This document shows, piece by piece, positions 1-61,889 of a stretch of DNA of 64,000 nt. The DNA is from Arenicola marina. Lineage: Eukaryota > Annelida > Polychaeta > Arenicolidae. The position numbers and the translations under genes were made by a program. Position 1 is the stretch's first letter. Each line of letters begins with the position of its first letter. Location: NCBI GenBank assembly GCA_964019135.1, contig OZ025260.1, positions 23,802,254-23,866,253 on the forward strand. Direction: 5' to 3'. A model generated the notes under the pieces. That model ran no database searches. It was not told the origin of the DNA and was given only the letters and a program-made list of their open reading frames with translations.

Positions 1-1149
1 TTGCTACCACTCAACCAGGCCTAGGCTACATCAACTGGTCTGATCACCTGCTATTCACTGGCCTGGCTCTTTATAGCTTATCCAGTGTTGTCTTGTATTT
101 GGGTCTTTAATTTATAGATCTATGGCATTATAAGGTAGAGCCTGGTTTAAACATTAGACCAGGGATTGCAAATTGAGGGTTACTTGTACAGGCCTGTATG
201 AAAAAATCAAGTGACTATTATAAATTTGTATGGCACATAGTCACTGTGATCTAATTTGATCAAGGTTGAGTCTCAGTTAGGCATGGCTCTATGTCACATT
301 ATTGGTGTCATGCAATAACTATCTCATATAGGACTAAGTTAGATGGTGTAGAGAGCGATTGTTTAAATCAATATCATTAAAAATTTGGTCTGTCAATTGC
401 TTAATGTATCTTTTCAAGTCAGCGTAATAGTCAGGAGATGGGATATATTTCTTTACATATCTTGTATTTCTCTATGACCATATTTGTGACCTGGCCATCT
501 TGAATATCCTGCCTTCACATCTTCCCTGACCATCATTGATTTTTAATGATATCCGTGATATCTCTCCTTTCCTATTCCTAGCTTAGAAAAAAATAAAATA
601 GGTCTACTCCCAAGTTGGATATCTTGCATACCTATGATTTAGTAGCTGCCACAGATGTTAGTGTTGCTGCAATATTTGCACCCAGTTTAAAGTTTCCAAC
701 ATGACAGTTAGATCAGATATCTTATCATATCACTGACTAATGCTTGCCCCCCCCCCCCTCCCATGTACTGTAGCCAATTTGACTGATCTTGATGACTGTA
801 AACTGCCTATTTGAAGCCGCATACATAATAGAAGCTGCACCCCAACTTTGGCCGCAAACTCAGGTTGGCAGGCACCCAGAACCATTTCCGGAAAACTACA
901 TATTATAAGCCGCACCCGGACTTTGGCCTTTGGACCCCCCTTGCACCCCCCCCCCCCTGTATCCCTGCTTAATCCCATCCCACCAACCAAACAAATTATA
1001 ATTGTTTATCTCCCAATTGGTTGACTTGTATGACGTTATGATGCAATGCATTATTTTGGCAACACCGGTAATTTTTGTATTACTCCCCTTCCAAATTATG
1101 AAAAAAATATAGCCAGTTTCACAAATGAGATTAAACAAAAAGTAGCTAG
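1..1149. other. No gene seen; low-complexity non-coding stretch
   Basis: No supported coding exon. It contains poly-C runs near 749-760 and 942-957 and AT-rich sequence, and possibly part of the LINE 3' untranslated region at its right end. The matching stretch in copy B is 33526-34685, with a 7-bp insertion near 34083. Confidence 0.6.
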
Positions 1150-1202
1150 CCAATGCAAGAAGGACCAGCCAGGTCTCCTTAGAAAGAATTGAAGTTTCTA
1201 AT

Positions 1203-4200: not shown

Positions 4201-5128
4201 AAAACGTCCAAAAACAATGAGTCATTAACCGTTAGCTTGATATCGTGATCTTCTAAAATTTCTCCGGGCTGGGCATATTGCTCAACCACTTGTCTTATTG
4301 TCCCCTTTACCATTTCGACATAGTTTTTATTCTTCAGGAGGGAGACATTTAATTTCCAAAAGCCTCTTCCCCTTTTTTCTGCAGAGTCGTTGATCGCAAA
4401 CCTAATTAGCGAGTGGTCCGATCTGTATTTTATGTTTATATCTATATCCACCATATTGCCAGTAGATCTGGGGTTACCAGAAAGAAATCTAACCTTGCAT
4501 ATTTTTTGGGTCTGCCCCCACTCTTCCAAGTAAAACGTCTGGCGCTATGATTTTGTGATCTCTACGGATCAACCAAGTCAAATTCCTCACACATAGAATT
4601 TACAACTTTGCTAGCTTTTACATTGTTTTGTCTGGAGTATCCCTTCGTGTCCAATTCAAAATTCTGAACAAGATTCCAGTCACCACATAGTAGTATAGAC
4701 ACATTTTGTAATTGTTTGATCCGATTTGATATGTGCTCAAAAAAAGCAGGGGTGTCTGTATTTGGCCCATATACCGATACCACTGTTATCGATTGACCCA
4801 TCAAATCTAAATCAATGGCGACATAGTTTCCTTCCGTATCAGTTATCACTTCCTTAACATTAAACTCAAAATTGTTATTGAACAATATGGCCGTCCCCCT
4901 AGCATTGCTTTTATATGAACTGAAAAACGCTTTATACCCCCACTCTCTTTCAAATTGAGCAATATTACCTTTTGCACAGTGGACTTCCTGCAAGCAGTAT
5001 ATTGAACATTGTTTTTCTTTTAGCCAATTGAAAATATCTGCACGTTTGCTTTTGTCAATTAAACCTCTAACATTCATGCTGGCAAAAGTAATGCTACCTG
5101 CCATGTATAATAATGGTGATGCAAACAA
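1203..5128 (-). pseudogene. LINE ORF2 (endonuclease-reverse transcriptase), broken
   Basis: Four open fragments make up this ORF2. 5128-4562 (188 codons) is the N-terminal endonuclease. 4529-3750 (259 codons) has the endonuclease C-terminus with SDH at residues 37-39 and then a coiled-coil-like charged linker. 3067-1466 (533 codons, opening without ATG) is the RT from FEKAFDTVDW onward, with the catalytic YADD. 1502-1203 has a C-x7-C, H-x4-C zinc-like motif near its start. Between 3067 and 3345 the sequence still encodes LTMKNGKSPGSD and CIPKPGKL, but jumps from KNWR to the FEKAF region, so roughly the RT motif 0-1 segment is deleted. Breaks also lie near 4530-4561 and 1466-1502. Confidence 0.85.
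3346..3753. mobile_element. TTAA-flanked MITE inserted in the LINE, copy A
   Basis: A 400-bp non-coding element (3350-3749) between two TTAA tetranucleotides. Its ends are inverted repeats of about 35 bp: AGTTGCATGTCGAG on the left and CTCGACATGCAACT on the right, followed inward by CCCGCCAAAACTAA and its complement. A TTAA target duplication is typical of piggyBac and Kolobok superfamilies; the terminal bases do not decide between them. LINE coding sequence resumes in the same frame on either side apart from a TAA at the target site. Confidence 0.85.
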
Positions 5129-5235
5129 TGATCTAAACCGATGAAATTACAAAACACCATTTCATTATCTCATATGATAACTGATACACCCGATATATAT
5201 ATGTTTTTTGGCAAAATGACATAAACTTGATTTTA

Positions 5236-5997
5236 TCAGAGAGAGTTTTTCCTTACAACCGGGGGTGGTGTCCTGAGCCTGATGTGGGTTTGTCTCCAAG
5301 TCTGTCTTCGGGGTGTGTCCTTTACCTCTGCAGATGTCTGACGTTGTTGTTTCGACGGGGGGGACGGTTCGCCTCTATTTGCTACTGTTTCTTGTGGGCT
5401 CCTCCTTCTCTTAGGCGTTGCCTGCCGGGGAATCCCCTGTGGTCTGTTTGGAGTGTGGACCCCCCTGGGACCCTCCGCGGCTCCACGCCCGGCGCTACCG
5501 TCCATCTGGGCATCCCAGTGTGTGGGGTCCCGTGCATGGGTTTCCCCAGCCGCTGGTGGAGGGGGCCCTCTGCTGTCGATGAGGGGGGTTCCGCCGCATG
5601 GGTTTCCCCAGACGCTGGTGGAGGGGGGCCCTCTGCTGTCGGCGATGGGAGGTCCGCCGCCTGGGTTTCCCTAGACGCTGGTGGAGGGGGGCCATCTACT
5701 GGCGGTGGAGGGGGGTCCCGCGCAGGAGTCTCCGCAGCCGCTGCTGGGGGGAGGCCCTCTGCTGTCGGTGGAGGGGGGTACCGCGCAGGGGTCTCCCCAG
5801 CCGCCGCTGGAGGGAGGCCCTCTGCTGTCGGTGGAGGGGGGTCCCGCGCAGGGGTCTCCCCAGCCGCCGCTGGAGGGAGGCCCTCTGCTGTCGGTGGAGG
5901 GGCTTGTTTGTGATGTTAAAGCAATCAACAACTTGGCTTGAGCCATTGTTTTTCCATTAAAGGTACCAGAACTTACAGAAGCTGACATGACAAGCAT
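5236..5997 (-). pseudogene. LINE ORF1 remnant, proline-rich repeats and basic tail
   Basis: Just upstream of ORF2 on the minus strand lie two open stretches in the same frame, 5997-5671 (108 codons) and 5505-5236 (89 codons). The first carries tandem copies of a proline/serine/glycine-rich unit with PPSTDSRGPPSSGGWGDP. The second ends in a strongly basic, arginine/lysine-rich tail. Position next to ORF2 and shared orientation make ORF1 of the LINE the best explanation; no zinc knuckle or RRM is visible, so this is a positional inference. The open plus-strand frames across the same bases are consequences of the GC-rich repeat. Confidence 0.5.
5512..5905. repeat. 63-bp GC-rich minisatellite inside LINE ORF1 remnant
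   Basis: About six imperfect units of 63 bp (21 codons). The last units begin with GTCGGTGGAGGGGGG at about 5764, 5827 and 5890. Because the period is a multiple of three, all frames stay open, which produces spurious ORFs on both strands. It is CpG-rich and lies about 0.6 kb upstream of the esterase start. Copy B has the same array at about 39048-39441. Confidence 0.85.
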
Positions 5998-6514
5998 ATG
6001 GCACTAGAGAAGTTTTGCAAACAAGTACCGATACTTTCTGTAGGATGTTTTCATATTTTCAGACTATTATGGCACATATTATTAATGTTCTCAACGATTA
6101 GATCTAAACATCCTAAATATCAATATTTTTAGACTATAGCTGTTGTTGTAAGAATACAAAACCTTTGAGTTGTCCAACATCACTGTACGAACTGTAAAAC
6201 CAGGAATACTGGTATGAATGGAGTGATATCCTAATTATGGCGATGTGGTAGCTGAGCTGCAAAGTAGTGCATTATTGGTTCTGAGCAGTCAGTGTTTTTC
6301 TATTGATGTAAGTAGGATATTTCAGTACATGTATTACGTCAGAAAGTTCCTACTAAAATGTGGCATCCACAGGTCTGTGTTAATTCCCATGTGATTCCCC
6401 CCTCTCTGGTGTCTGATATTTAATCAATGGGATTTAGGGCGTTAATTCTTTAGGTCTGTCATAATAGAAAAAAATTACGTACATGAATTATGGATATTTA
6501 TTTACGCCGAAGCC
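5998..6514. other. Upstream region of esterase gene, copy A
   Basis: About 0.5 kb between the LINE and the first esterase exon, AT-rich, with no recognised gene, CpG island or clear TATA box at a fitting distance. The esterase promoter is presumably here or in the GC-rich LINE end to the left; the sequence does not decide. The copy B equivalent is 39534-40049. Confidence 0.4.
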
Positions 6515-12313
<5,799 letters not shown>

Positions 12314-13049
12314 GCCGCAACTCCTGCTATAGCACGGTGAAAAGTATCGATATATTTGTCAGGAACCAATTTTTAATTAATCTATATGAATTTTGTTTCT
12401 CGATAATTGTATTAAATTAAACAGATCTGTGCTTATATTTATATCTGATTTGTATGGTTAATTATTTGCATCAAAGTATTTATCGAGGCTAAATTATGTT
12501 ATTCATGCAGGTTTGTCATAAAGGATACACGAAAAGTAGTTCATTATGCCTGGAGTTTGCGTGAGCCTGTGGCGTTGAGTGCATCCTGGGTAGCTTGTTA
12601 CGTCGGTCGTCGCATTATGAATCATTGCAAAAGTGTTGATTGAAAGGCCTGTAATGATTGACATCAATTCCATTTATATCATACAACCCTGTTGAGATTC
12701 GTGACCGCGTTTGAAGGCCGTGGTAAAGCAACGCTTCGAAATGAGATCTTCCAAGGTTTTTTTTTCCTGGGACGGATCATCTACAGATCACTGTGCCAAT
12801 CCTTGTTCAAATGGTGCAATGATTGATCTATAATATTTTATAACTATTAGTTCATTCGTATTTTACATTGTTAATGTATCTTCAGCATTAAAATATCATA
12901 CTGAAAATTGCATTGGTTTGAGTGTTACTTTTTAAACAGGAGCTCTGCTATGTTTGAGACATTGTTTCAAAGGCGATTGGGAAGCATAACCGAACTGTTG
13001 ACCCTTGACCGTCACTAGAACCCGTGTTTCTGAGCAACGTTGATGGGCC
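12314..13049. other. 3' flank of esterase gene, no gene seen, copy A
   Basis: AT-rich sequence after the esterase stop codon; AAATTAAA-type poly-A candidates occur near 12410 but no single signal stands out. No coding exon or repeat was recognised before the tRNA-like segment at 13050. Copy B equivalent: 45852-46587. Confidence 0.5.
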
Positions 13050-13130
13050 GGCCCGGTAGCTCAGTGGGCTAGCGCTCGCATTGAGTGCACTAGCCACCTG
13101 AGAGCCTAACGGCACGTGGATCGGTAGAGC
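13050..13130 (+). repeat. tRNA-like A-box segment beside the satellite, copy A
   Basis: Contains GGTAGCTCAGTGGGCTAGCG, in which TAGCTCAGTGGG fits the Pol III A-box consensus TRGCNNAGYNGG at every position. No convincing B box follows, so it is not an intact tRNA gene; it resembles the head of a tRNA-derived SINE. It lies about 240 bp before the 41-bp satellite, whose unit matches the 20-mer at 17 of 20 positions. Confidence 0.6.
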
Positions 13131-13293
13131 GCGCCATGCTGTGACCAGGTCTGTGTGGTAGCAGGATAAAGATCTCCTGTCCTTTTCGTAAAGAGTAGGT
13201 TACCCCCGGGAACATGGCACCACTCTCCCTTCCTTCTCACATTGATGGAATAGCATGGACACGGGGTGGTCTCCAGAGCGTGCGCCCAGCAGG

Positions 13294-16200
13294 GGCCGCA
13301 GTGGTAGCGCACTCGGCTAGCGGGCACCCTTCCTTGCCGCAGTGGTAGCGCACTCGGCTAGCGGGCACCCTTCCTTGCCGCAGTGGTAGCGCACTCGGCT
13401 AGCTGGCACCCTTCGTGGCCGCAGTGGTAGCGCACTCGGCTAGCGGGTCACCTTCGTGGCCGCAGTGGTAGCGCACTCGGCTAGCGGGCACCCTTCGTGG
13501 CCGCAGTGGTAGCGCACTCGGCTAGCGGGTCCCCTTCGTGGCCGCAGTGGTAGTGCACTCGGCTAGCGGGTCCCCTTCGTGGCCGCAGTGGTAGCGCACT
13601 CGGCTAGCGGGCACCCTTCGTGGCCGCAGTGGTAGTGCACTCGGCTAGCGGGTCACCTTCGTGGCCGCAGTGGTAGCGCACTCGGCTAGCGGGCACCCTT
13701 CGTGGCCGCAGTGGTAGTGCACTCGGCTAGCGGGTCACCTTCGTGGCCGCAGTGGTAGCGCACTCGGCTAGCGGGCACCCTTCGTGGCCGCAGTGGTAGT
13801 ACACTCGGCTAGCGGGCACCCTTCGTGGCCGCAGTGGTAGCGCACTCGGCTAGCGGGCACCCTTCCTTGCCGCAGTGGTAGCGCACTCGGCTAGCGGGCA
13901 CCCTTCCTTGCCGCAGTGGTAGCGCACTCGGCTAGCGGGCACCCTTCGTGGCCGCAGTGGTAGCGCACTCGGCTAGCGGGCACCCTTCCTTGCCGCAGTG
14001 GTAGTGCACTCGGCTAGCGGGCACCCTTCGTGGCCGCAGTGGTAGTGCACTCGGCTAGCGGGGACCCTTCGTGGCCGCAGTGGTAGTGCACTCGGCTAGC
14101 GGGCACCCTTCGTGGCCGCAGTGGTAGCGCACTCGGCTAGCGGGCACCCTTCGTGGCCGCAGTGGTAGTGCACTCGGCTAGCGGGTCCCCTTCGTGGCCG
14201 CAGTGGTAGCGCACTCGGCTAGCGGGCACCCTTCGTGGCCGCAGTGGTAGCGCACTCGGCTAGCGGGTCACCTTCGTGGCCGCAGTGGTAGCGCACTCGG
14301 CTAGCGGGTCCCCTTCGTGGCCGCAGTGGTAGCGCACTCGGCTAGCGGGCACCCTTCGTGGCCGCAGTGGTAGCGCACTCGGCTAGCGGGCACCCTTCGT
14401 GGCCGCAGTGGTAGCGCACTCGGCTAGCGGGCACCCTTCGTGGCCGCAGTGGTAGTGCACTCGGCTAGCGGGTCCCCTTCGTGGCCGCAGTGGTAGTGCA
14501 CTCGGCTAGCGGGCACCCTTCGTGGCCGCAGTGGTAGTGCACTCGGCTAGCGGGTCACCTTCGTGGCCGCAGTGGTAGCGCACTCGGCTAGCGGGCACCC
14601 TTCGTGGCCGCAGTGGTAGCGCACTCGGCTAGCGGGTCCCCTTCGTGGCCGCAGTGGTAGCGCACTCGGCTAGCGGGCACCCTTCGTGGCCGCAGTGGTA
14701 GCGCACTCGGCTAGCGGGCACCCTTCGTGGCCGCAGTGGTAGCGCACTCGGCTAGCGGGCACCCTTCGTGGCCGCAGTGGTAGTGCACTCGGCTAGCGGG
14801 CACCCTTCGTGGCCGCAGTGGTAGCGCACTCGGCTAGCGGGCACCCTTCGTGGCCGCAGTGGTAGCGCACTCGGCTAGCGGGTCCCCTTCGTGGCCGCAG
14901 TGGTAGCGCACTCGGCTAGCGGGCACCCTTCGTGGCCGCAGTGGTAGCGCACTCGGCTAGCGGGCACCCTTCGTGGCCGCAGTGGTAGCGCACTCGGCTA
15001 GCGGGCACCCTTCGTGGCCGCAGTGGTAGCGCACTCGGCTAGCGGGCACCCTTCGTGGCCGCAGTGGTAGCGCACTCGGCTAGCGGGCACCCTTCGTGGC
15101 CGCAGTGGTAGCGCACTCGGCTAGCGGGTCCCCTTCGTGGCCGCAGTGGTAGCGCACTCGGCTAGCGGGCACCCTTCGTGGCCGCAGTGGTAGCGCACTC
15201 GGCTAGCTGGCACCCTTCGTGGCCGCAGTGGTAGCGCACTCGGCTAGCGGGCACCCTTCGTGGCCGCAGTGGTAGCGCACTCGGCTAGCGGGCACCCTTC
15301 GTGGCCGCAGTGGTAGTGCACTCGGCTAGCTGGCACCCTTCGTGGCCGCAGTGGTAGCGCACTCGCCTAGCGGGCACCCTTCCTTGCCGCAGTGGTAGCG
15401 CACTCGGCTAGCGGGTCCCCTTCGTGGCCGCAGTGGTAGTGCACTCGGCTAGCGGGGACCCTTCGTGGCCGCAGTGGTAGCGCACTCGGCTAGCGGGTCA
15501 CCTTCGTGGCCGCAGTGGTAGCGCACTCGGCTAGCGGGTCCCCTTCGTGGCCGCAGTGGTAGCGCACTCGGCTAGCGGGCACCCTTCGTGGCCGCAGTGG
15601 TAGCGCACTCGGCTAGCGGGCACCCTTCGTGGCCGCAGTGGTAGCGCACTCGGCTAGCGGGTCCCCTTCGTGGCCGCAGTGGTAGTGCACTCGGCTAGCG
15701 GGGACCCTTCGTGGCCGCAGTGGTAGCGCACTCGGCTAGCGGGTCACCTTCGTGGCCGCAGTGGTAGCGCACTCGGCTAGCGGGCACCCTTCGTGGCCGC
15801 AGTGGTAGCGCACTCGGCTAGCGGGTCCCCTTCGTGGCCGCAGTGGTAGCGCACTCGGCTAGCGGGTCACCTTCGTGGCCGCAGTGGTAGCGCACTCGGC
15901 TAGCGGGCACCCTTCGTGGCCGCAGTGGTAGCGCACTCGGCTAGCGGGTCCCCTTCGTGGCCGCAGTGGTAGCGCACTCGGCTAGCGGGTCACCTTCGTG
16001 GCCGCAGTGGTAGCGCACTCGGCTAGCGGGTCCCCTTCGTGGCCGCAGTGGTAGCGCACTCGGCTAGCGGGTCCCCTTCGTGGCCGCAGTGGTAGCGCAC
16101 TCGGCTAGCGGGCACCCTTCGTGGCCGCAGTGGTAGCGCACTCGGCTAGCGGGCACCCTTCGTGGCCGCAGTGGTAGCGCACTCGGCTAGCGGGTCCCCT

Positions 16201-19200
16201 TCGTGGCCGCAGTGGTAGTGCACTCGGCTAGCGGGGACCCTTCGTGGCCGCAGTGGTAGCGCACTCGGCTAGCGGGTCACCTTCGTGGCCGCAGTGGTAG
16301 CGCACTCGGCTAGCGGGCACCCTTCGTGGCCGCAGTGGTAGCGCACTCGGCTAGCGGGTCCCCTTCGTGGCCGCAGTGGTAGCGCACTCGGCTAGCGGGT
16401 CCCCTTCGTGGCCGCAGTGGTAGCGCACTCGGCTAGCGGGCACCCTTCGTGGCCGCAGTGGTAGCGCACTCGGCTAGCGGGTCCCCTTCGTGGCCGCAGT
16501 GGTAGCGCACTCGGCTAGCGGGTCACCTTCGTGGCCGCACTGGTAGCGCACTCGGCTAGCGGGCACCCTTCGTGGCCGCAGTGGTAGTGCACTCGGCTAG
16601 CGGGTCCCCTTCGTGGCCGCACTGGTAGCGCACTCGGCTAGCGGGCACCCTTCGTGGCCGCAGTGGTAGCGCACTCGGCTAGCGGGTCCCCTTCGTGGCC
16701 GCAGTGGTAGCGCACTTGGCTAGCGGGCACCCTTCGTGGCCGCAGTGGTAGTACACTCGGCTAGCGGGTCCCCTTCGTGGCCGCAGTGGTAGCGCACTCG
16801 GCTAGCGGGCACCCTTCGTGGCCGCAGTGGTAGCGCACTCGGCTAGCGGGCACCCTTCCTGGCCGCAGTGGTAGCGCACTCGGCTAGCGGGCACCCTTCG
16901 TGGCCGCAGTGGTAGCGCACTCGGCTAGCGGGTCCCCTTCGTGGTCGCAGTGGTAGCGCACTCGGCTAGCGGGCACCCTTCGTGGCCGCAGTGGTAGCGC
17001 ACTCGGCTAGCGGGCACCCTTCGTGGCCGCAGTGGTAGCGCACTCGGCTAGGGGGCACCCTTCGTGGTCGCAGTGGTAGCGCACTCGGCTAGGGGGCACC
17101 CTTCGTGGCCGCAGTGGTAGCGCACTTGGCTAGCGGGCACCCTTCGTGGCCGCAGTGGTAGCGCACTTGGCTAGCGGGCACCCTTCGTGGCCGCAGTGGT
17201 AGCGCACTCGGCTAGCTGGCACCCTTCGTGGCCGCAGTGGTAGTGCACTCGGCTAGCGGGCACCCTTCGTGGCCGCAGTGGTAGCGCACTCGGCTAGCGG
17301 GCACCCTTCGTGGCCGCAGTGGTAGCGCACTCGGCTAGCTGGCACCCTTCGTGGCCGCAGTGGTAGCGCACTCGCCTAGCGGGCACCCTTCCTTGCCGCA
17401 GTGGTAGCGCACTCGGCTAGCGGGCACCCTTCGTGGCCGCAGTGGTAGCGCACTCGGCTAGCGGGTCCCCTTCGTGGCCGCAGTGGTAGCGCACTCGGCT
17501 AGCGGGCACCCTTCGTGGCCGCAGTGGTAGCGCACTCGGCTAGCGAGCACCCTTCGTTGCCGCAGTGGTAGCGCACTCGGCTAGCGGGCACCCTTCGTGG
17601 CCGCAGTGGTAGCGCACTCGGCTAGCGAGCACCCTTCGTTGCCGCAGTGGTAGCGCACTCGGCTAGCGGGCACCCTTCGTGGCCGCAGTGGTAGCGCACT
17701 CGGCTAGCGGGCACCCTTCGTTGCCGCAGTGGTAGCGCACTCGGCTAGCGGGCACCCTTCGTGGCCGCAGTGGTAGCGCACTCGGCTAGCGAGCACCCTT
17801 CGTTGCCGCAGTGGTAGCGCACTCGGCTAGCGGGCACCCTTCGTGGCCGCAGTGGTAGCGCACTCGGCTAGCTGGCACCCTTCGTTGCCGCAGTGGTAGC
17901 GCACTCGGCTAGCGGGTCCCCTTCGTGGCCGCAGTGGTAGCGCACTCGGCTAGCGGGCACCCTTCGTGGCCGCAGTGGTAGCGCACTCGGCTAGCGGGCA
18001 CCCTTCGTGGCCGCAGTGGTAGCGCACTTGGCTAGCGGGCACCCTTCGTGGCCGCAGTGGTAGCGCACTCGGCTAGCGGGTCACCTTCGTGGCCGCAGTG
18101 GTAGCGCACTTGGCTAGCGGGCACCCTTCGTGGCCGCAGTGGTAGCGCACTCGGCTAGCGGGCACCCTTCGTGGCCGCAGTGGTAGCGCACTCGGCTAGC
18201 GGGCACCCTTCGTGGCCGCAGTGGTAGCGCACTTGGCTAGCGGGCACCCTTCGTGGCCGCAGTGGTAGCGCACTCGGCTAGCGGGCACCCTTCGTGGCCG
18301 CAGTGGTAGTGCACTCGGCTAGCGGGTCACCTTCGTGGCCGCAGTGGTAGCGCACTCGGCTAGCGGGCACCCTTCGTGGCCGCAGTGGTAGCGCACTCGG
18401 CTAGCGGGCACCCTTCGTGGCCGCAGTGGTAGCGCACTTGGCTAGCGGGCACCCTTCGTGGCCGCAGTGGTAGCGCACTCGGCTAGCGAGCACCCTTCGT
18501 GGCCGCAGTGGTAGTGCACTCGGCTAGCGGGCACCCTTCCTGGCCGCAGTGGTAGTACACTCGGCTAGCGGGCACCCTTCGTGGTCGCAGTGGTAGCGCA
18601 CTCGGCTAGCGGGCACCCTTCGTGGCCGCAGTGGTAGCGCACTCGCCTAGCGGGCACCCTTCCTTGCCGCAGTGGTAGCGCACTCGGCTAGCGGGTCCCC
18701 TTCGTGGCCGCAGTGGTAGTGCACTCGGCTAGCGGGGACCCTTCGTGGCCGCAGTGGTAGCGCACTCGGCTAGCGGGTCCCCTTCGTGGCCGCAGTGGTA
18801 GTGCACTCGGCTAGCGGGCACCCTTCGTGGCCGCAGTGGTAGCGCACTTGGCTAGCGGGCACCCTTCGTGGCCGCAGTGGTAGTGCACTCGGCTAGCGGG
18901 CACCCTTCGTGGCCGCAGTGGTAGCGCACTCGGCTAGCTGGCACCCTTCGTGGCCGCAGTGGTAGCGCACTTGGCTAGCGGGCACCCTTCGTGGCCGCAG
19001 TGGTAGCGCACTTGGCTAGCGGGCACCCTTCGTGGCCGCAGTGGTAGTGCACTCGGCTAGCGAGCACCCTTCGTGGCCGCAGTGGTAGCGCACTCGGCTA
19101 GCGGGCACCCTTCGTGGCCGCAGTGGTAGCGCACTCGGCTAGCGGGCACCCTTCGTGGCCGCAGTGGTAGCGCACTTGGCTAGCGGGCACCCTTCCTTGC

Positions 19201-21602
19201 CGCAGTGGTAGCGCACTCGGCTAGCGGGTCACCTTCGTGGCCGCAGTGGTAGTGCACTCGGCTAGCGGGCACCCTTCGTGGCCGCAGTGGTAGCGCACTC
19301 GGCTAGCGGGTCCCCTTCGTGGCCGCAGTGGTAGCGCACTCGGCTAGCGGGCACCCTTCGTGGCCGCAGTGGTAGCGCACTCGGCTAGCGGGTCCCCTTC
19401 GTGGCCGCAGTGGTAGTACACTCGGCTAGCGGGCACCCTTCGTGGCCGCAGTGGTAGCGCACTCGGCTAGCGGGTCCCCTTCGTGGCCGCAGTGGTAGCG
19501 CACTCGGCTAGCGGGCACCCTTCGTGGCCGCAGTGGTAGCGCACTCGGCTAGCGGGCACCCTTCGTGGCCGCAGTGGTAGTGCACTCGGCTAGCGGGGAC
19601 CCTTCGTGGCCGCAGTGGTAGCGCACTCGGCTAGCGGGCACCCTTCGTGGCCGCAGTGGTAGCGCACTCGGCTAGCTGGCACCCTTCGTGGCCGCAGTGG
19701 TAGTGCACTCGGCTAGCGGGCACCCTTCGTGGCCGCAGTGGTAGCGCACTCGGCTAGCGGGCACCCTTCGTGGCCGCAGTGGTAGCGCACTTGGCTAGCG
19801 GGCACCCTTCGTGGCCGCAGTGGTAGCGCACTCGGCTAGCGGGCACCCTTCGTGGCCGCAGTGGTAGCGCACTCGGCTAGCGGGCACCCTTCGTGGCCGC
19901 AGTGGTAGTGCACTCGGCTAGCTGGCACCCTTCGTGGCCGCAGTGGTAGCGCACTCGGCTAGCGGGTCCCCTTCGTGGCCGCAGTGGTAGTGCACTCGGC
20001 TAGCTGGCACCCTTCGTGGCCGCAGTGGTAGCGCACTCGGCTAGCGGGTCCCCTTCGTGGCCGCAGTGGTAGTGCACTCGGCTAGCGGGCACCCTTCGTG
20101 GCCGCAGTGGTAGCGCACTCGGCTAGCGGGCACCCTTCGTGGCCGCAGTGGTAGCGCACTCGGCTAGCTGGCACCCTCCGTGGCCGCAGTGGTAGCGCAC
20201 TCGGCTAGCGGGCACCCTTCGTGGCCGCAGTGGTAGCGCACTCGGCTAGCTGGCACCCTTCGTGGCCGCAGTGGTAGCGCACTCGGCTAGCGGGCACCCT
20301 TCGTGGCCGCAGTGGTAGCGCACTCGGCTAGCGGGCACCCTTCGTGGCCGCAGTGGTAGCGCACTTGGCTAGCGGGCACCCTTCGTGGCCGCAGTGGTAG
20401 CGCACTCGGCTAGCTGGCACCCTTCGTGGCCGCAGTGGTAGCGCACTTGGCTAGCGGGCACCCTTCCTTGCCGCAGTGGTAGCGCACTTGGCTAGCGGGC
20501 ACCCTTCGTGGCCGCAGTGGTAGCGCACTCGGCTAGCTGGCACCCTTCGTGGCCGCAGTGGTAGTGCACTCGGCTAGCGGGCACCCTTCGTGGCCGCAGT
20601 GGTAGCGCACTCGGCTAGCGGGCACCCTTCGTGGCCGCAGTGGTAGCGCACTTGGCTAGCGGGCACCCTTCGTGGCCGCAGTGGTAGCGCACTCGGCTAG
20701 CGGGCACCCTTCGTGGCCGCAGTGGTAGCGCACTCGGCTAGCGGGCACCCTTCGTGGCCGCGGTGGTAGCGCACTCGGCTAGGTGGCACCCTTCGTGGCC
20801 GCAGTGGTAGCGCACTCGGCTAGCGGGCACCCTTCGTGGCCGCAGTGGTAGCGCACTTGGCTAGCGGGCACCCTTCCTTGCCGCAGTGGTAGCGCACTCG
20901 GCTAGCGGGTCCCCTTCGTGGCCGCAGTGGTAGCGCACTCGGCTAGCGGGCACCCTTCGTGGCCGCAGTGGTAGCGCACTCGGCTAGCGGGCACCCTTCG
21001 TGGCCGCAGTGGTAGCGCACTCGGCTAGCGGGCACCCTTCGTGGCCGCAGTGGTAGCGCACTTGGCTAGCGGGCACCCTTCCTTGCCGCAGTGGTAGCGC
21101 ACTCGGCTAGCGGGCACCCTTCGTGGCCGCAGTGGTAGCGCACTTGGCTAGCGGGCACCCTTCCTTGCCGCAGTGGTAGCGCACTCGGCTAGCGGGTCCC
21201 CTTCGTGGCCGCAGTGGTAGTGCACTCGGCTAGCGGGTCACCTTCGTGGCCGCAGTGGTAGTGCACTCGGCTAGCGGGCACCCTTCGTGGCCGCAGTGGT
21301 AGCGCACTCGGCTAGCGGGCACCCTTCGTGGCCGCAGTGGTAGCGCACTCGGCTAGCGGGTCCCCTTCGTGGCCGCAGTGGTAGTGCACTCGGCTAGCGG
21401 GCACCCTTCGTGGCCGCAGTGGTAGCGCACTCGGCTAGCGGGTCCCCTTCGTGGCCGCAGTGGTAGTGCACTCGGCTAGCGGGCACCCTTCGTGGCCGCA
21501 GTGGTAGCGCACTCGGCTAGCGGGTCCCCTTCGTGGCCGCAGTGGTAGTGCACTCGGCTAGCGGGTCCCCTTCGTGGCCGCAGTGGTAGCGCACTCGCCT
21601 AG
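13294..21602. repeat. 41-bp satellite array, about 203 units, copy A
   Basis: Uninterrupted tandem array of a 41-bp unit, 8309 bp long. The core is GGTAGCGCACTCGGCTAGCG, followed by a variable GGCACCC, GGTCCCC, GGTCACC, TGGCACC or GGGACCC segment and then TTCGTGGCC or TTCCTTGCC. TAGCGCACTCGG matches the Pol III A-box consensus at 11 of 12 positions, with TAGC/GCTA able to pair like a D-stem. Most units contain GCTAGC. The period is not a multiple of three and TAG occurs in every unit, so it is non-coding. There are no unique spacers, so it is not a CRISPR array. Confidence 0.97.
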
Positions 21603-23801
21603 ATGAGACCGTTGGGGCCGCATGGTGAATACACTAGCAACAACAAATATGGACTTCACAACCAACTTTTAAAAAGTAAAAAGAAAAGGAATTTCGGCTT
21701 TATGATTTTATAGTTAACATCGGCAGAATGGCATGGAATAAAACTGGCGCTGTTTCTGCAAGCAACTCGATTCAGCGTTATAATATATATAATGAAGACA
21801 CGCATTCCTGACCTTCCAATGCCCCCTTTACCCCCTAATAAAAGCGACCCTCTATATCTCATTCAAGATATATTTTATGGATACTTTATAGTGATGTGAT
21901 CAATATTTAATATAATAGTGACCTAAAATAAGAGTTTTGTCAAGCTTCCACTTCCGAATCTCACTGCTAATCAGTTACCTTCTCAGATAATAACTCATCA
22001 ATTGGTTTTTAAAGAATAGAGATGCTAATGGTTGTAGAGCAGGACATGTGTAATGGTTCCATTGATACATTACATAGATAGAGGTACTCCTGTTCAATCA
22101 ATAGCCTTCTGTAAGGACAGGCTAGTTTCACTCCCAGCTTTAGATAAAGTGGCTGAGAACGCCAGCCCTATAAATATCTATACTCTCGTAGCATTCCTCT
22201 ACAACAGCGTCCACGTCAACCTTACCTAAAAATAGTCAAAGAAAATAATCCCTAAAGAATTATTTATAGTTCGTGTGGACCTCTGAGAGAGTCAGAGCGC
22301 ATTGATTTACAAGCGGGGCCCGTGTGGAAACTCCAATGCTAGGAAGCTCGTTTTATGTAGGCGCTGTAACATGTATAGGTCATATAGCGATAATGGGAAG
22401 GGTCAGGAAAGACAGGAGCCATGTCTCCGGAAGTAACTCCCTACCCTCTTCAAGACAAATAAAGACATCCGGTCGTTATCCTGCACCAACATAAACATGT
22501 GCACAGGTGGGATTCGAACCTTGCAGCGTTACCTACTAGGTCACGGGGTGAGGAGCTGGAGCTGAGAGTACCAACTTCCAAGAAAACGGCGTCAAATACT
22601 CGGGTTAACAGTAGCACAGACATTAACAAATGTTTTAATAGTGCATTGGCCTGACGCTGAAACCGAACTAGCATCCCCCAGTAACGTCAATGTCAAGACA
22701 GCAAACTCAAGTTGTGGTAATATAAACCAATGAAAAGGCCGCAAATCAAGAGTACAAACACGGTGCTAAGACTTGTAACAAGTGCTGCAAGAGTCTCGTG
22801 CAAGTCCTGGTAAAATAAACAAAAAGCGTGACATATCTCCGCCATTTTCACCGAGGACAATATAAGTGCATCAGATATACCAGCAACAGTTCGCCTTCTC
22901 TCATCTGCTGCCCTGTATACTATATGCTGCGCTGCCACTGTATAATTGGTATTGCGCCGTTATGAATGAGCATCGAAAAAAAAACCGATGACAAAAATCA
23001 CGCAAAAATCCCCCTGTATATATATTATGATTAATTCATTACACATATTAGTGTTCTTCTTCTTTGCCATTATTCATTCCACATCCGCCACACCCCCCCC
23101 CACCCCCACGAGCCTCAGTGTACAGTTTTATCATGGGTGGGGGGGGGAGCAGATATATACCATACATGCGGCCCATCCTGTATGCAGCGTGTTCTTAAAA
23201 CTAAACCTCCATTTAGTTGCTTAGCATCCCCAATATTTTGATTAATTGACAGACCTTATCAGCTTTAACCACACCCACCACTGGCAGATTTCAGCAATAA
23301 TATCATGTCCAACAACATCCTGGCATCATTTTCTTCACCTGCGCCCACAGCGAACCCACATCACTTAGCTTTGGAGCTATCGGTGCGCGCCGACATTTCA
23401 ATAAAACGCAGATTTCGTACAAGTCTCATCGATTTGTTTTAATCTGAGCGCCTTAAAGGTCTTTACTTTTCTCAGCGTAACTCACGTATTACACACGCTC
23501 AGCGCTTACTGCATAATAACCGACTCCGCGGGGATCCTAACATGGAAGATGGTCCAGACGGGACGTCGACCGGTGGCGGATTTCACGAACGCCGTTCAGC
23601 CGACTACGGGGCTTAAGTGGACCAACGTTAACATGTATATGATGGGTGATTTTAGCCGATTAAGCCCCATAGCCGGCTAAAATATATTCGTGCAATAGGC
23701 CCCAGACTGCAGTCTGCTAACTATACGTGACGCGTGGTGGTTATAACCATCAGTCCCCCTTACCCGGAGGTCAAACTTAACTAATGTAACATCGACAGAT
23801 G
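21603..23801. other. Intergenic region between satellite and ATP-grasp gene, copy A
   Basis: About 2.2 kb with no supported gene. It contains a short tRNA-like fragment at 22510-22543 and mixed poly-C/poly-G tracts near 23090-23150. Small open frames occur but lack ATG context, splice logic or recognisable domains. Copy B equivalent: 55226-57418. Confidence 0.5.
22510..22543 (-). repeat. Shortened tRNA-like SINE fragment, copy A
   Basis: On the minus strand TGACCTAGTAGG (A-box, 11 of 12) is followed after only 11 bp by GGTTCGAATCC, a perfect B-box. In a real tRNA the boxes are about 30-40 bp apart, so this is a SINE head or tRNA pseudogene with an internal deletion rather than a tRNA gene. 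Confidence 0.55.
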
Positions 23802-25139
23802 TCAGCAAGCGAGCGGCACGAGTTCCGGCATTTTGAGGATTTCCTTCCTCAGGGCCTTGATTTTGGCGACGCATTCGTCGAAGTCCTTGCCGGTGACGGT
23901 CACCGACCCCACGATGGCGTAGTCCTTGGCGGGCTCGATGGCGATGTCCTGGCCGGGCAGGTAGCGCAGCCACACGTCTGGGTTGCGCAGCGCCTTGTCG
24001 AAGTGGAGCAGCTGGTCCGCCTTGCCGTTCTCGAAGACGAGGAAGAAGTAGTTGACGACGAAGACGCCCTTGAGCTTGGGTCGCTTGGGCCGGATGCCGA
24101 GGCCGATCTGCAGGGCCGCCTCGATGTTGTTGCCGTTGTCCGTGGCCCGGACGTACAGCTTGGTGTTCTTCACGTTGGGGCAGCCGTTGATGGTCACCAG
24201 GTGGATGTAGTCGTCCTCGAAGACCATGTACTCGGCGTGGACGAACGAGTCGTTGAAGCCGTGCTCGATGAGCCGGCGGATGTCCTTCATAAACTCCTCC
24301 CACAGGCTCTCCTGCTGGTCGCGGCTCAACCGGCTGGGCATCTGGAAGCCGGGGAAGATCTGGGTCGTCTGGCGCTGGCCGTGCGGCAGCGTGATGGCGT
24401 CCGAGACGGCCCAGGGCAGGATCTCCCCCTTGAAGACGCACGCCTCCACGTTGACGTTGACCCAGGTGGAGCCGGGCAGCGCCGTGAAGCGATTCAGGAA
24501 GCAGTTCATTATCACAGAGTCGCTGGCCGCCATCGGGTACTTCCTCAGGTCGACGAAGTTCTCGATCAGGTAGCGCTGCATGCTGGTGATGTGGCGGACG
24601 TCCTTGCGGCACTTGGACAGCAGCTGGATCAGCTGGTCGCGGTTGTGGAAGCAGTAGGTGGAGTGGCCGCTGCCCAGGCACGCTCGGACGTAGCACGGCG
24701 CCTTGACCCGGTTCAGGACCTGGTAGGCCAGGTCGTATTGATCCTCCTTCAGAGTCAGCACGAAGTACGGCAACTTCTCCCGGCGCGAGTCTATCACAGT
24801 GGTCGTGTAATACTTGTGGCAGCAGAGGAAGATGGACTCGGCCGTGGGGCCCCGGATGGACGGCGATTCCTGGCAGAGGATACCCTTCACTAAGGTGCCG
24901 ATCGTCTTGTTGGCGAAGATGACACTGATCTTCTCATCCTTGATAATCCGCCGCGCTATGTGCAACAGCGAGGCGTAGTTCACAGTACCATTCTCATGGC
25001 GGGGTATGGGCTTGATGCAGTAGAAGGTGAAGAGCTTCTTGAACTCCGGAGTGATGGACTTGAAGAAGGGTTCGTAATTTCTCTCGTGTATGGGCGGTAT
25101 CAGGAGGACGCGCACGCTGCCGGAGCCTTCCTTCTCCAT
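23802..25139 (-). CDS. ATP-grasp domain protein, carnosine-synthase-like, copy A
   Basis: Protein of 445 residues whose coding part lies in one exon. The layout fits the ATP-grasp superfamily: an N-terminal pre-domain (1-130), a glycine-rich nucleotide loop APCYVRACLGSG at 147-158, the beta-strand VNVEACVFKGEI at 229-240, MPSRLSRDQQ near 267, the metal-site strand FVHAEYMVFEDDYIHLVTIN at 299-318, and a C-terminal subdomain ending near 432. The spacing and MPSRL resemble metazoan carnosine synthase, which ligates beta-alanine and histidine, but at 445 aa it is shorter. The usual lysine in the first strand is Arg152 and the usual IEIN appears as VTIN (Thr316), so catalysis may be altered or lost. 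ATG at 25139 has strong context (ACCATGG) and an in-frame TGA just upstream. CTTTCAG before 25166 suggests a 5'-UTR intron. The exon is very GC-rich compared with its flanks. Substrate unknown. Confidence 0.8.
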   Translation of the reverse strand: MEKEGSGSVRVLLIPPIHERNYEPFFKSITPEFKKLFTFYCIKPIPRHENGTVNYASLLHIARRIIKDEKISVIFANKTIGTLVKGILCQESPSIRGPTAESIFLCCHKYYTTTVIDSRREKLPYFVLTLKEDQYDLAYQVLNRVKAPCYVRACLGSGHSTYCFHNRDQLIQLLSKCRKDVRHITSMQRYLIENFVDLRKYPMAASDSVIMNCFLNRFTALPGSTWVNVNVEACVFKGEILPWAVSDAITLPHGQRQTTQIFPGFQMPSRLSRDQQESLWEEFMKDIRRLIEHGFNDSFVHAEYMVFEDDYIHLVTINGCPNVKNTKLYVRATDNGNNIEAALQIGLGIRPKRPKLKGVFVVNYFFLVFENGKADQLLHFDKALRNPDVWLRYLPGQDIAIEPAKDYAIVGSVTVTGKDFDECVAKIKALRKEILKMPELVPLAC

Positions 25140-25166
25140 GGTCCGACGTCAGCTCGCCCCATAAGG

Positions 25167-25177
25167 CTGAAAGGATA
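25167..25177 (-). other. Predicted 3' splice site of a 5'-UTR intron, ATP-grasp gene A
   Basis: On the minus strand ATATCCTTTCAG, a pyrimidine-rich acceptor, ends at 25167. The coding exon would start at 25166, 27 bases before the ATG. An in-frame TGA lies in those bases, so the intron would be in the 5' untranslated region. The upstream exon was not located. Copy B has the same site at 58784. Confidence 0.5.
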
Positions 25178-25580
25178 TAGACCAAAGATCAGGTTCATGT
25201 TAACCACTACAGAATAGCCACCAATATCAGAAGGTATAGATGTCCGTTTTCTCCAGTATAGTATTCAATCCAGGAAATTTTATATTCATTGCCAAAATTC
25301 ACCATTTAATAAAACAATTAGCAAGCTATTGTTAGCTTCTTATTAAAGAATGACATTGTGATATTACATACATATATGAGTCATTCTCTAAATTGACTAA
25401 TTTTGTGCATGCCAATTGTCAAATAACGGGCTATTTTACCAATTACTTCGATTGAAACATTGTGTAATGCAATGGTCACAGAACATCCTAATTTGATATT
25501 ACGAAAAACTTTATCGAGATTACACTAGTTTTACCTATTTAATTAAGGATTTATTTATGTATTATATCACAGAGATGAAT

Positions 25581-26150
25581 TTGGTATTTTATTGTTATAG
25601 GTAAAATCTTGAGATGGTCCCTCTCACATGAATTTGAACCCGTATATCTGAGATAGTCCCTGAGAGCAAGGCTACATTTAAATCCCTGCAAAACTACTTG
25701 CTCTTCTAAAGTTTAAAGCCCCAAACAAATGCAGAATAGTTCACCGGGTGTGATGCTGGGATGTCACTGTTAACGCGAGATTATCCAAACAGAAGACAAT
25801 GTATCCACTTTATAGTTCTTTATTAATTCAAAGATGCGCCCAGTCAGGTCTGGATCCCGAAGCCAACTGACTCCTGAGTCTCTATGAATGTAAAACCCCT
25901 GTGGCCCTGGACAGCCGGGAGACCCAGTAGCCAATGGAGGCACACAGATATAACCTCTGTGACTCCACATTTAAAAGAGCCAATGACAAAGGAACCTCTG
26001 CATTTGTTTAGGCTTTAAACTTTAGAAGAGCAAGTAGCTTTGCAGGGATTTAAATGTAGGCTTGCCCTCAGGGACTATCTTAGGTATACGGGTTCAAATT
26101 CATGTGAGAGGGACCATCTCAAGATTTTACCTATAACAATAAAATACCAA
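25581..26150. mobile_element. Foldback element with ~155-bp arms, copy A
   Basis: Left arm 25581-25735 and right arm 25997-26150 are inverted copies: TTGGTATTTTATTGTTATAG at the left pairs with CTATAACAATAAAATACCAA at the right, and similarity continues inward through ACATTTAAATCCCTGCAAA to the AAACAAATGCAGA motif. Weaker similarity extends some 30-50 bp outward on both sides. The 260-bp centre shows no recognised protein. It is a non-autonomous MITE or foldback element; no target duplication was seen and the superfamily is unknown. Confidence 0.8.
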
Positions 26151-27053
26151 AGTCATCTATGTGATAATTATGTAAACAAATTATGCCATAAATTGGTAAC
26201 ACGTTTGGGAACCACATTTTGCCCTCCGAGTCTCTCACTTTAAAGTTTGTCTTTTGCATCATAACTGGCATCACTTATCGTGGAAACTGCTATATGATAA
26301 TCTGCCATCGACTCTTAGTATATATTTAACAGTATTTTTTCACAACTTTCTGTATCGTAACGGTATGTGATGCAATTCCGTCCTCTATGATTCATAGTTT
26401 TGTTCCTGGACATCATACTTAAAATATAACATTGATTCCTGTCCAACATCTCGATCTGTAATTTTCTGATGAGTGTTACAGCTCCCACTCACCGCTATCG
26501 ATTACTATGACCTGTATTTCAATTATTGGCCCTATCTCCCAATGGTTACGGAACAAACAAAAAATTCCTGTGACCTTGACCTTTGACCTACATACCCCGC
26601 TAACAAACTTGACAGAGCCATTTTTGATACCTATTGGTGGGTAAAGTTACAGAACGATCTGTTGCGATTTGCTACCTGCAGAGCGCGAACAGATACACAC
26701 ACACACACAGACAAACGGACAAAGTGATAAATTCCGGAAATCTAAGATTTCCATCATAAAAACAGGTCTAAATCACTTGCACAGTGAATCTTCAATGGCA
26801 CAAGGAGAGTTGCCAAGCAACTGAATTATATGCCACAAGCATGTGCATGTCATACGTCATTCTGCCAAAGATATGCATTATTGCAAGCCGAAGTGGGATT
26901 TAGCATGCGATAAGGTTAACCAAACCAAGCACCCGTAACATCTGCATGCATGATTAAATATGTTACTGATTAATTGATCAGGCATTATCCTGGCCGAACA
27001 TTAGTAAAAGAAACAACACAGAAATAATTAGTAACCATATGAATGCCATGCAG
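26151..27053. other. Non-coding repeat-like stretch, copy A
   Basis: No gene seen. It includes the AGGTCA cluster, a (CA)n microsatellite at 26694-26709, and the site (26900-26902) at which copy B carries a 427-bp insertion. Confidence 0.5.
26571..26589 (-). promoter_or_regulatory. Triple nuclear-receptor half-site, copy A
   Basis: The minus strand reads AGGTCAAAGGTCAAGGTCA, that is AGGTCA, one base, AGGTCA, AGGTCA: a perfect DR1 plus a DR0. DR1 elements bind HNF4, RXR and COUP-type receptors. It sits in a repeat-like stretch followed by a (CA)n run at 26694-26709 and may simply be repeat sequence. Copy B has one changed half-site at 60189-60207. Confidence 0.35.
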
Positions 27054-27791
27054 AATGGCTGAACGGCATAACGGCCGAGCCGCTCTCACCACCCCCATGG
27101 GTGGAGGGTCGTCGAACCGCCTGCCAGCGGATTAGTCTGCGCCTCGACGATTGGCTTGGTGTCGGCTTCGGCATCGGCTGGGGAAGGGTGGGGGGAGGGT
27201 CTGGCTCGGGGTGGATGAAGCTGGCGATTGGTGTCAATTGTGTTTGTGTTGCTGGCTGCTGGGTGTGTTTGGGTGGAGGGGCGGGGATGGGACCAATATG
27301 TACTGATTTTTAGGAGAAATCTTCACGGCCAGGCCACTAAAGTAATCACTAAATTTCGGGGAATTGTCAACGGCCCCGTAACGAGCATGGATAACGTTCA
27401 CGCATCCCGTAATGAACATTGATAACGCAGAATTTGCATGCGGCCCGAAACATTTTTCACACGGAAAGTCAGCTTCATTCATTCTGATTTCATTTCCGTG
27501 GCTTTCTCAATGGCCAATTAATTTTTGATTGGTATTATAGGAATCCACAACACATGTGCAGTAACCTTGGATAACAACTTATAACGCGGCCCAAAACATT
27601 TTTCAGTCTTTTTGTGAATCCTAATTCACGAGGCCCCAATTCTGATTTTAGCAATCTGCAACAGCGGCCTTTGATCACAACTTGTGAAGCCTCGGCTTCT
27701 GGTCAGTCCGGTAACATATTTTCTGACTCCATGGTCACATTGGCATGCAATTAAATATTGGCTTCTTCTTTGGGGTTATGGATAAAATGAA

Positions 27792-27799
27792 TATAAAAG
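27792..27799 (+). promoter_or_regulatory. TATA box of the zinc-finger ORF, copy A
   Basis: TATAAAAG, a full TATA consensus, lies 47 bp upstream of the ATG at 27839. An initiator-like ATCATTCC lies about 30 bp downstream of it. Both are conserved in copy B (TATA box at 61843-61850). Confidence 0.55.
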
Positions 27800-27838
27800 G
27801 ACGTCCAGCATATGGGGCTATCATTCCTTGTCTGAAAC

Positions 27839-28270
27839 ATGGCAGACTTATGTATCTCTTGCGATGCTCCTGTCCATCAGCGACAAGAAGGGCTACAGTG
27901 CGACGGCTGCCAACGGTGGCAGCATCGTGTCTGCGGCACCGGCATGTCACGTGACGCGTACCACGTGGCCATCCGTTTATCAATGTTCATTACGGGCCGC
28001 GTGAACGTTATCCATGCTCGTTACGGGGCCATTGACAATTCACCCAAATTTAGTGATTACTTAAGTGGCCCGGCCATGAAGATTTCTCCTAAAAAATCAG
28101 TAAATATTGGTCCCACACACCTAGCAGCCAGCAACACAAACACAAATGACACCAAACACCAGATTAATCCATGTGTGCCGGACGCAGCTCCCTCCCCCCT
28201 CCCCCACCCGATGCCGAAGCCATCTTGGCCGACGCCAAGCCAGATATCCAATCGTCGAGGCGCAGACTAA
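27839..28270 (+). CDS. PHD-like zinc-finger ORF of the MULE-like element, copy A
   Basis: 143-codon ORF. Residues 1-45 form a compact zinc-binding module with Cys5, Cys8, Cys21, Cys24, His29 and Cys32 (CISC, then CDGCQRWQHRVC), as in a PHD-type or related finger. Fingers ending in CGTG are known at the N-terminus of MULE-transposase proteins in marine invertebrates; this family link is from memory of such proteins, not a search. From about codon 47 the frame enters the right inverted arm, and the rest is a low-complexity proline-rich translation of that arm. The real protein may be only the finger, spliced to a lost transposase exon, or a truncated DNA-binding peptide. Confidence 0.45.
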   Translation: MADLCISCDAPVHQRQEGLQCDGCQRWQHRVCGTGMSRDAYHVAIRLSMFITGRVNVIHARYGAIDNSPKFSDYLSGPAMKISPKKSVNIGPTHLAASNTNTNDTKHQINPCVPDAAPSPLPHPMPKPSWPTPSQISNRRGAD

Positions 28271-28335
28271 TCCACTGGTGGCTCGGGCTCGACGACCCCG
28301 CACCCCCCCCCACCACCAAACCACCCCATCCCCAA

Positions 28336-33525: not shown

Positions 33526-34738
33526 TTGCTACCACTCAACCAGGCCTAGGCTACATCAACTGGTCTGATCACCTGCTATTCACTGGCCTGGCTCTTTATA
33601 GCTTATCCAGTGTTGTCTTGTATTTGGGTCTTTAATTTATAGATCTATGGCATTATAAGATAGAGCCTGGTTTAAACATTAGACCAGGGATTGCAAATTG
33701 AGGGTTACTTGTACAGGCCTGTATGAAAAAATCAAGTGACTATTATAAATTTGTATGGCACATAGTCACTGTGATCTAATTTGATCAAGGTTGAGTCTCA
33801 GTTAGGCATGGCTCTATGTCACATTATTGGTGTCATGCAATAACTATCTCATATAGGACTAAGTTAGATGGTGTAGAGAGCGATTGTTTAAATCAATATC
33901 ATTAAAAATTTGGTCTGTCAATTGCTTAATGTATCTTTTCAAGTCAGCGTAATAGTCAGGAGATGGGATATATTTCTTTACATATCTTGTATTTCTCTAT
34001 GACCATATTTGTGACCTGGCCATCTTGAATATCCTGCCTTCACATCTTCCCTGACCATCATTGATTTTTAATGATATCCGTGCTCTATGATATCTCTCCT
34101 TTCCTATTCCTAGCTTAGAAAAAAATAAAATAGGTCTACTCCCAAGTTGGATATCTTGCATACCTATGATTTAGTTGCTGCCACAGATGTTAGTGTTGCT
34201 GCAATATTTGCACCCAGTTTAAAGTTTCCAACATGACAGTTAGATCAGATATCTTATCATATCACTGACTAATGCTTGCCCCCCCCCCCCCTCCCATGTA
34301 CTGTAGCCAATTTGACTGATCTTGATGACTGTAAACTGCCTATTTGAAGCCGCATACATAATAGAAGCTGCACCCCAACTTTGGCCGCAAACTCAGGTTG
34401 GCAGGCACCCAGAACCATTTCCGGAAAACTACATATTATAAGCCGCACCCGGACTTTGGCCTTTGGACCCCCCTTGCACCCCCCCCCCCCCCCTGTATCC
34501 CTGCTTAATCCCATCCCACCAACCAAACAAATTATAATTGTTTATCTCCCAATTGGTTGACTTGTATGACGTTATGATGCAATGCATTATTTTGGCAACA
34601 CCGGTAATTTTTGTATTACTCCCCTTCCAAATTATGAAAAAAATATAGCCAGTTTCACAAATGAGATTAAACAAAAAGTAGCTAGCCAATGCAAGAAGGA
34701 CCAGCCAGGTCACCTTAGAAAGAATTGAAGTTTCTAAT

Positions 34739-40049: not shown

Positions 40050-45851
<5,802 letters not shown>

Positions 45852-61850: not shown

Positions 61851-61889
61851 GACGTCCAGCATATGGGGCTATCATTCCTTGTCTGAAAC

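Follow-up and report, generated by a model that had tools for sequence, protein, structure and literature searches.

A 41-bp minisatellite with a tRNA 5′-half-like unit and no common unit order between two duplicate copies in Arenicola marina

Introduction

The polychaete Arenicola marina carries, in the 64,000-nucleotide stretch analysed here (the window: assembly GCA_964019135.1, contig OZ025260.1, positions 23,802,254 to 23,866,253, forward strand), two arrays of a 41-bp unit, each about 8.3 kb long, one in each copy of a tandem segmental duplication. The unit resembles the 5′ half of a tRNA, and the two arrays, named A and B, have no detectable order of unit variants in common. The repeat is best read as a hypervariable minisatellite with a unit that is tRNA-5′-half-like; of greater interest is that the two arrays do not share their unit order. 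On balance we favour the reading that this GC-rich minisatellite grew from the head of a tRNA or of a tRNA-like short interspersed nuclear element (SINE) and was reshuffled by unequal exchange or conversion, with no need for a function in transcription by RNA polymerase III (Pol III). It is probably a fast-shuffling repeat and not a working Pol III element. The initial annotation had described array A as a satellite of a Pol III A-box-like, tRNA-derived unit, expanded from a tRNA/SINE head and perhaps acting as a TFIIIC-bound insulator or as Pol III start sites.

Array structure and unit order

The duplication and the arrays are placed as follows.

1..28333, no strand: tandem segmental duplication, copy A (BLAST-type match; starts at window base 1)
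33526..62383, no strand: tandem segmental duplication, copy B (sequence match to copy A)
13294..21602, + strand: array A (Tandem Repeats Finder, TRF: 202.7 copies, 94% matches; 202 complete 41-bp units and one partial)
46835..55225, + strand: array B (TRF: 204.7 copies, 95% matches; 204 complete 41-bp units and one partial)
21576..21602, + strand: truncated last unit of array A, ending in CTAG
55199..55225, + strand: truncated last unit of array B, ending as in array A's last unit with one base different

TRF and the cutting of both arrays into units bear out the initial annotation of a 41-bp array with a second array in copy B. Every complete unit, 202 of 202 in A and 204 of 204 in B, is exactly 41 bp long, and the arrays are within 1% of each other in length. 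The units stand head to tail, and their length lies within the range of about 9–100 bp typical of hypervariable minisatellites. Array A has a GC content of 0.69; the observed/expected ratio of CpG is 0.93 and 0.92 in the arrays, compared with 0.84 and 0.86 in the flanks. Protein coding of array A is ruled out by its longest stop-free runs (22 amino acids on the + strand, 40 on the − strand). Array A comprises 31 distinct unit types and array B 42; 17 types are common to both, and many identical single-base variants recur in the two arrays.

The copies lie about 33.5 kb apart. Their flanks are 99.33% (13,310 bp), 98.80% (5,310 bp) and 98.34% (1,444 bp) identical, with 0 to 2.8% substitutions per bin. 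The arrays inside these flanks have lost collinearity. A local alignment of A with B at the level of units scored 11.9, compared with 12.4±1.5 (maximum 15.9) in 40 shuffles; the longest run of units common to both is five (shuffle mean 4.7, maximum 8); and even the best offset leaves 1.70 mismatches per unit, against a shuffled mean of 1.71. Variant units thus stand in a differing order in the two copies, as in hypervariable minisatellites, the assembled order being taken as given for these two copies. Self-alignment, on the other hand, scored 30.8 for A and 45.7 for B, where 30 shuffles gave no more than 16.4 and 15.8, and therefore the block duplications inside each array are real and private to that array. 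Exchange reaches inside units as well, since 20 of the 35 pairs of variant sites tested occur in all four combinations. Variant frequencies are largely alike: for 21 of the 24 variant states, A and B show no difference in frequency at p<0.05.

Eight other short tandem repeats, all that TRF found in both copies, serve as a comparison. All are collinear, with 0, 7, 0, 1, 2, 1, 0 and 0 substitutions in order and one gap column in total; being far shorter (36 to 369 bp), these controls cannot separate an effect of sequence from one of length.

Likeness of the unit to tRNA 5′ halves

The unit was scored for fourteen tRNA features, namely the invariant or semi-invariant bases T8, A14, R15, G18, G19, A21, R26, Y32, T33 and R37, together with four D-stem pairs. 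With one inserted C it has all 14 when read as T8-G9-G10-C11-[C]-G12-C13-A14-G15 and onwards, a result that none of 300 shuffles and none of 400 41-mers drawn at random from the window attains. This stronger register, TGGC[C]GCAGTGGTAGCGCACTCGGCTAGC, follows the pattern of a tRNA 5′ half, with its conserved features and D-stem pairs; it reads TGGC[C]GCAGTGG and lies 12 bp upstream of the A box marked in the initial annotation. When no insertion is allowed the best score is 12 of 14, a value also found in 8 of 300 shuffles and in 7 of 400 41-mers from the window, and the register first marked is one of two that give it. The proposal of a tRNA-derived unit thus keeps its tRNA likeness and loses its register. 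An internal duplication of the unit, considered as the source of the two overlapping registers, did not rise above shuffles (ungapped 729/1000, gapped 377/500).

Comparison with tRNA sequences points the same way. A unit no closer to tRNA heads than shuffled sequence had been named beforehand as evidence against tRNA derivation. Against 124 tRNAs, a set that excludes all tRNA-Pro and tRNA-Met, the unit had a mean score of 8.07, or 12.30 over the ten best tRNAs, and 0 of 500 shuffles reached either value; against 13 eukaryotic tRNAs, the mean was reached by 0 of 1000. The unit is thus more like tRNA 5′ halves than its shuffles are. The figures of 0/1000 obtained with 149 fetched tRNA 5′ parts are biased, since words taken from the unit or from the upstream segment described below had served to retrieve those loci.

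Exact words of the unit fall within tRNA genes. The 18-mer GCAGTGGTAGCGCACTCG has 11 matches in prokaryote contigs, 10 of them within tRNA-Pro genes called by ARAGORN, at offset 11–12. The word GCAGTGGTAGCGCACT has six matches in viral contigs, three within tRNA-Pro. Among its other matches, L004 and L006 lie near the end of the cut locus: L006 is tRNA-Pro-like by eye, and L004 starts at the motif and is flanked by the same neighbouring tRNAs as L003; L001 is not tRNA-Pro. Two further 16-mers of the unit gave 0 matches and so provide no background rate. The bacterial and phage tRNA genes matched are not ancestors of the repeat; they only mark the matched word as a D-arm word.

A tRNA-head-like segment upstream of the array

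A similar segment lies about 220 bp before array A and has a counterpart in copy B.

13034..13125, + strand: single tRNA-head-like segment, copy A (unit alignment, tRNA scores; A-box-like TAGCTCAGTGGG at 13057)
46572..46612, + strand: tRNA-head-like segment, copy B (BLAST match 46584-46612; start inferred from offset)

Positions 13055-13074 read GGTAGCTCAGTGGGCTAGCG and match the core of the unit at 17 of 20 positions, as first reported. Against the whole unit, 13034-13074 matches in 29 of 41 alignment columns; 6 of 500 shuffles of the unit and none of 200 shuffles of the flank score as high. The stretch 13046-13125 is tRNA-like on all three measures (0/300 shuffles each), with GGCCCGGTAGCTCAGTGGGCTAGCGCT as its best-matching part. 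In the feature test the segment scores 11 with T8 at 13057, in the register of the initial annotation, and 12 with T8 at 13044, and neither value is exceptional. Its word GGTAGCTCAGTGGGCT has 18 viral matches, nine within tRNA-Met at offset 17 and nine outside tRNAs. The likeness between unit and segment may partly stem from both being tRNA-like, so that their common descent is plausible and no more.

Decayed units in the right flank of the array were considered and not adopted: on the + strand, 77 of 500 shuffles of the unit and 15 of 200 shuffles of the flank equalled the score, and on the − strand 11 of 500 and 6 of 200 did so. As a separate observation, 13040-13125 folds better than most shuffles (z −2.13; 6/200 as good) into a long hairpin, with no cloverleaf.

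Pol III and TFIIIC function

Clustered box elements could bind TFIIIC, so that the array would act as an insulator between convergent genes or supply Pol III start sites. Most units do carry a tRNA-like D-arm word (TGGCCGCAGTGG, 178 times in A and 178 in B, the base before the first A unit being G), and array A is placed between convergent 3′ ends. The boxes themselves argue otherwise. The unit contains TAGCGCACTCGG, originally counted as 11 of 12 matches to the A-box consensus. Three of these were N positions, and the match stands at 8 of 9 informative positions; 76 of 1000 dinucleotide shuffles of the unit equal it, which puts this match, taken by itself, near chance level. An 8/9 site is present on the minus strand too (53/1000 shuffles), and the A box of the other tRNA register, TGGCCGCAGTGG, matches 7 of 8 positions of a looser consensus (155/1000). 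Nor is the marked 12-mer present in every unit, as had been supposed; its copies number 141 in A and 145 in B. The upstream A box, given before as 12 of 12, matches 9 of 9 informative positions and is reached by 1 of 300 shuffles.

In human TFIIIC, the A box is bound with low affinity, and recognition of the B box is a high-affinity step essential for type 2 genes (PMC11811891). The best B box in the unit matches 6 of 10 positions, which 630 of 1000 shuffles reach on the + strand and 435 of 1000 on the − strand, and there is none above shuffles in the flank stretches 13040-13293 and 21577-21800. Of the A and B boxes that mark a tRNA-derived SINE, there is the A-box-like 9/9 match upstream and no B box above shuffles, and the B box of extra-TFIIIC (ETC)-type insulators is likewise lacking above chance. 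TTTT and AAAA are absent from both arrays, and the folding energy is ordinary (z 0.01 for one unit, −0.95 for two units, −1.17 for the reverse strand). A scan of the left flank for bacterial-type promoters and terminators found nothing relevant above shuffles. Lacking a B box above chance, TTTT within the arrays and a match to the Rfam tRNA model, the sequence lends no support to the proposed Pol III or TFIIIC role, which we regard as very improbable.

Weighing the reading

Several results weigh against a minisatellite that grew from a tRNA/SINE-like head and was reshuffled by recombination. With regard to reshuffling, three of the 24 variant states differ in frequency between A and B, and the overall difference in variant frequency, F = 0.0186, is above the 95% limit obtained when the pooled units are partitioned at random (0.0105). 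Toy simulations were run until collinearity was lost. Isolated arrays (five settings, 60 runs each) gave a mean F of 0.034–0.308, and 7 of 300 runs matched both the observed F and the shared types; exchange within a common pool (40 runs) gave a mean F of 0.005–0.006, and 0 of 40 runs were as high as observed. Neither simple model fits, since F and the 17 shared unit types lie between the means of both, which sets aside pure turnover within each array as well as a fully shared exchange pool. Such intermediate values are what partial exchange between copies or alleles would give. Furthermore, total reshuffling would not be expected to leave copy numbers as close as 202.7 and 204.7. Of the 40 pool-exchange runs, 3 ended with arrays that differed by at most two units, which makes the near-equal length mildly surprising and keeps alive the rival of an assembly artefact.

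According to this main rival, the unit variants are real and their order is an arbitrary product of the assembler, or else two haplotypes of one locus were assembled into a tandem duplication that does not exist. An arbitrary order would be biologically uninformative; with joined haplotypes, the difference would be allelic and not one between duplicates. Near-equal lengths and mostly equal variant frequencies in the absence of a common order fit two arbitrary paths through one repeat graph, and the flank divergence of about 0.7–1.7% lies within the range for alleles of outbred invertebrates, which can diverge to that extent. Arbitrary paths through one graph should nevertheless have adjacent-unit words in common, and the arrays have fewer common two-unit words than shuffles do (66 against 74.8±4.3; 491 of 500 shuffles reach 66), which argues against such paths. 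Common words of three, four and five units are at shuffle level (366, 91 and 66 of 500 shuffles), while each array's own repeated words of two to five units are far above it (0/500). The right ends of the copies also continue differently, 62384-64000 having no match in 28334-33525 at E 1e-3. We hold an artefact to be rather unlikely. The duplication itself may be two haplotypes joined in the assembly.

As for tRNA descent, the single best score against the 124 tRNAs (14.5) was reached by 25 of 500 shuffles, and the best of the 13 eukaryotic tRNAs by 34 of 1000, neither clearly significant. A 21-mer of the unit had 0 matches in prokaryote contigs and a 17-mer 0 in viral contigs; neither register of the unit holds an A box better than chance (76 to 155 of 1000 shuffles). 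ARAGORN found no tRNA in the window, and Rfam none at E up to 10 in 12900-13700, so that a complete tRNA gene, whether by cloverleaf or by Rfam model, is set aside. The one Rfam hit, mir-602 (19.6 bits against a gathering score of 90, E 0.98) is taken as chance.

The likeness might accordingly be convergence, a GC-rich minisatellite holding chance D-arm words with no descent from a tRNA. The near-ordinary best single match is in keeping with this, as are the exact 16–18-mer matches, which belong to bacterial and phage tRNA-Pro and thus to no likely ancestor, and the overlap of two registers, neither of which is perfect unless an insertion is allowed. Convergence leaves unexplained the 14 of 14 features that neither shuffles nor window 41-mers attain, and a second tRNA-head-like segment 220 bp upstream that aligns along the whole unit, and we consider it unlikely.

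Genomic setting

The array had been described as lying between two unrelated genes in opposite orientations, and this holds in copy A, where a carboxylesterase gene (+) and a 448-codon open frame (−) converge on it.

7069..12313, + strand: carboxylesterase gene exons, copy A (Pfam COesterase; 3′ end faces the array; outer limits approximate)
23802..25148, − strand: 448-codon open frame (stop to stop), copy A (3′ end faces the array)

The carboxylesterase gene contains introns, and the frame of its last exon stops at about 12313. The 448-codon frame has no Pfam match at E up to 10 in copy A and no match to a sequence of the Protein Data Bank (PDB) at E up to 1; a single-sequence structure prediction gave a mean predicted local distance difference test (pLDDT) of 38.5 and is unusable. 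By eye it may resemble ATP-grasp enzymes. Its counterpart in copy B lies at 57419-58765 (−).

The copy A match begins at window base 1, and the duplication may therefore extend further left. Copy B holds about 418 bp extra at 60523-60940, which have no match in 28334-33525. Other elements include a LINE-like element (long interspersed nuclear element), with endonuclease and reverse transcriptase frames split over several open reading frames, at 1466-5146 (−) and 35002-38682 (−), and a 63-bp GC-rich tandem repeat that adjoins its 5′ end. This element and the intron-containing carboxylesterase mark the content of the window as eukaryotic. In the spacer between the duplicate copies, two tandem repeats adjoin each other at 29489-31508, one with units of 375 bp in 2 copies and one with units of 424 bp in 3 copies (97% matches). 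Positions 25549-25735 and 25997-26181 form an inverted repeat of about 187 bp with 92.5% identity, present in both duplicate copies, and a 144-codon open frame at 27836-28270 (+) gives a weak PHD-finger match under the Pfam cut-off (E 0.0018).

Proposed origin and significance

In our proposal, the 41-bp unit is derived from, or at least very similar to, a tRNA 5′ half comprising the D arm and the start of the anticodon arm. Its source would plausibly be the head of a tRNA-derived SINE, which may have left a decayed relative about 220 bp upstream. The array would have been grown and maintained by recombination in the gap between two convergent gene ends, through out-of-register exchange and gene conversion, in which the partners would be sister chromatids, alleles or the two duplicate copies. 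If the assembled order is correct, unit order would have been wholly replaced while the flanks diverged by just about 0.5–1.3% in substitutions, and no transcription-factor function would be needed.

A more specific version of this proposal is speculative, and we give it little credence. In it, the tRNA-5′-half-derived array would undergo conversion-dominated, length-preserving shuffling specific to this repeat, randomising order and keeping the 41-bp units, array length (within 1%) and most variant frequencies nearly constant. Such shuffling would be far faster than point mutation in the flanks, absent from the eight neighbouring short repeats and perhaps triggered by the tRNA-like sequence.

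Provided the assembly is right, the two copies constitute a natural clock, in which flanks diverged by about 1% while some 200 units lost all common order. The eight much shorter neighbouring repeats would then be built-in controls for sequence- or length-specific instability, and the locus would present a case of a tRNA-head-like sequence turned into a long tandem array.

Comparison with known systems

A tRNA-derived SINE has a 5′ head that is similar to the 5′ half of a tRNA and includes an A box. The array is like such SINEs in its tRNA 5′-half-like head and differs in that no B box above chance is present. For satellites derived from tRNA or SINE heads, the literature consulted established no described case, which is no proof that none is in print.

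Close parallels are also found among the hypervariable minisatellites. In humans, their internal structure is highly diverse between alleles, and inter-allelic exchange and gene conversion drive the change (PMC2599865). MS32/D1S8, CEB1 and MSY1, studied by variant-repeat mapping, are like the present array in having units of tens of bp and interspersed variant units; here, two copies in one assembly are compared in place of typed alleles, and the unit is tRNA-like. The "mirage" minisatellites in the Adh3 and globin genes of amphioxus are comparable as unstable minisatellites of an invertebrate chordate, unstable in length and in somatic cells, with units that evolve in concert within an array (PMC3087553). 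Mirages lie across exon/intron borders, and those described in the globin genes have up to 6 units, whereas this array is intergenic and has about 200. Finally, the human 1q23.3 tRNA variable-number tandem repeat is GC-rich, contains tRNAs and shows both meiotic and mitotic instability (PMC4041453). Its units are 7.3 kb long with tRNA genes, and it binds CTCF, whereas the unit of Arenicola marina is 41 bp long and holds a 5′-half-like segment only, with no complete tRNA.

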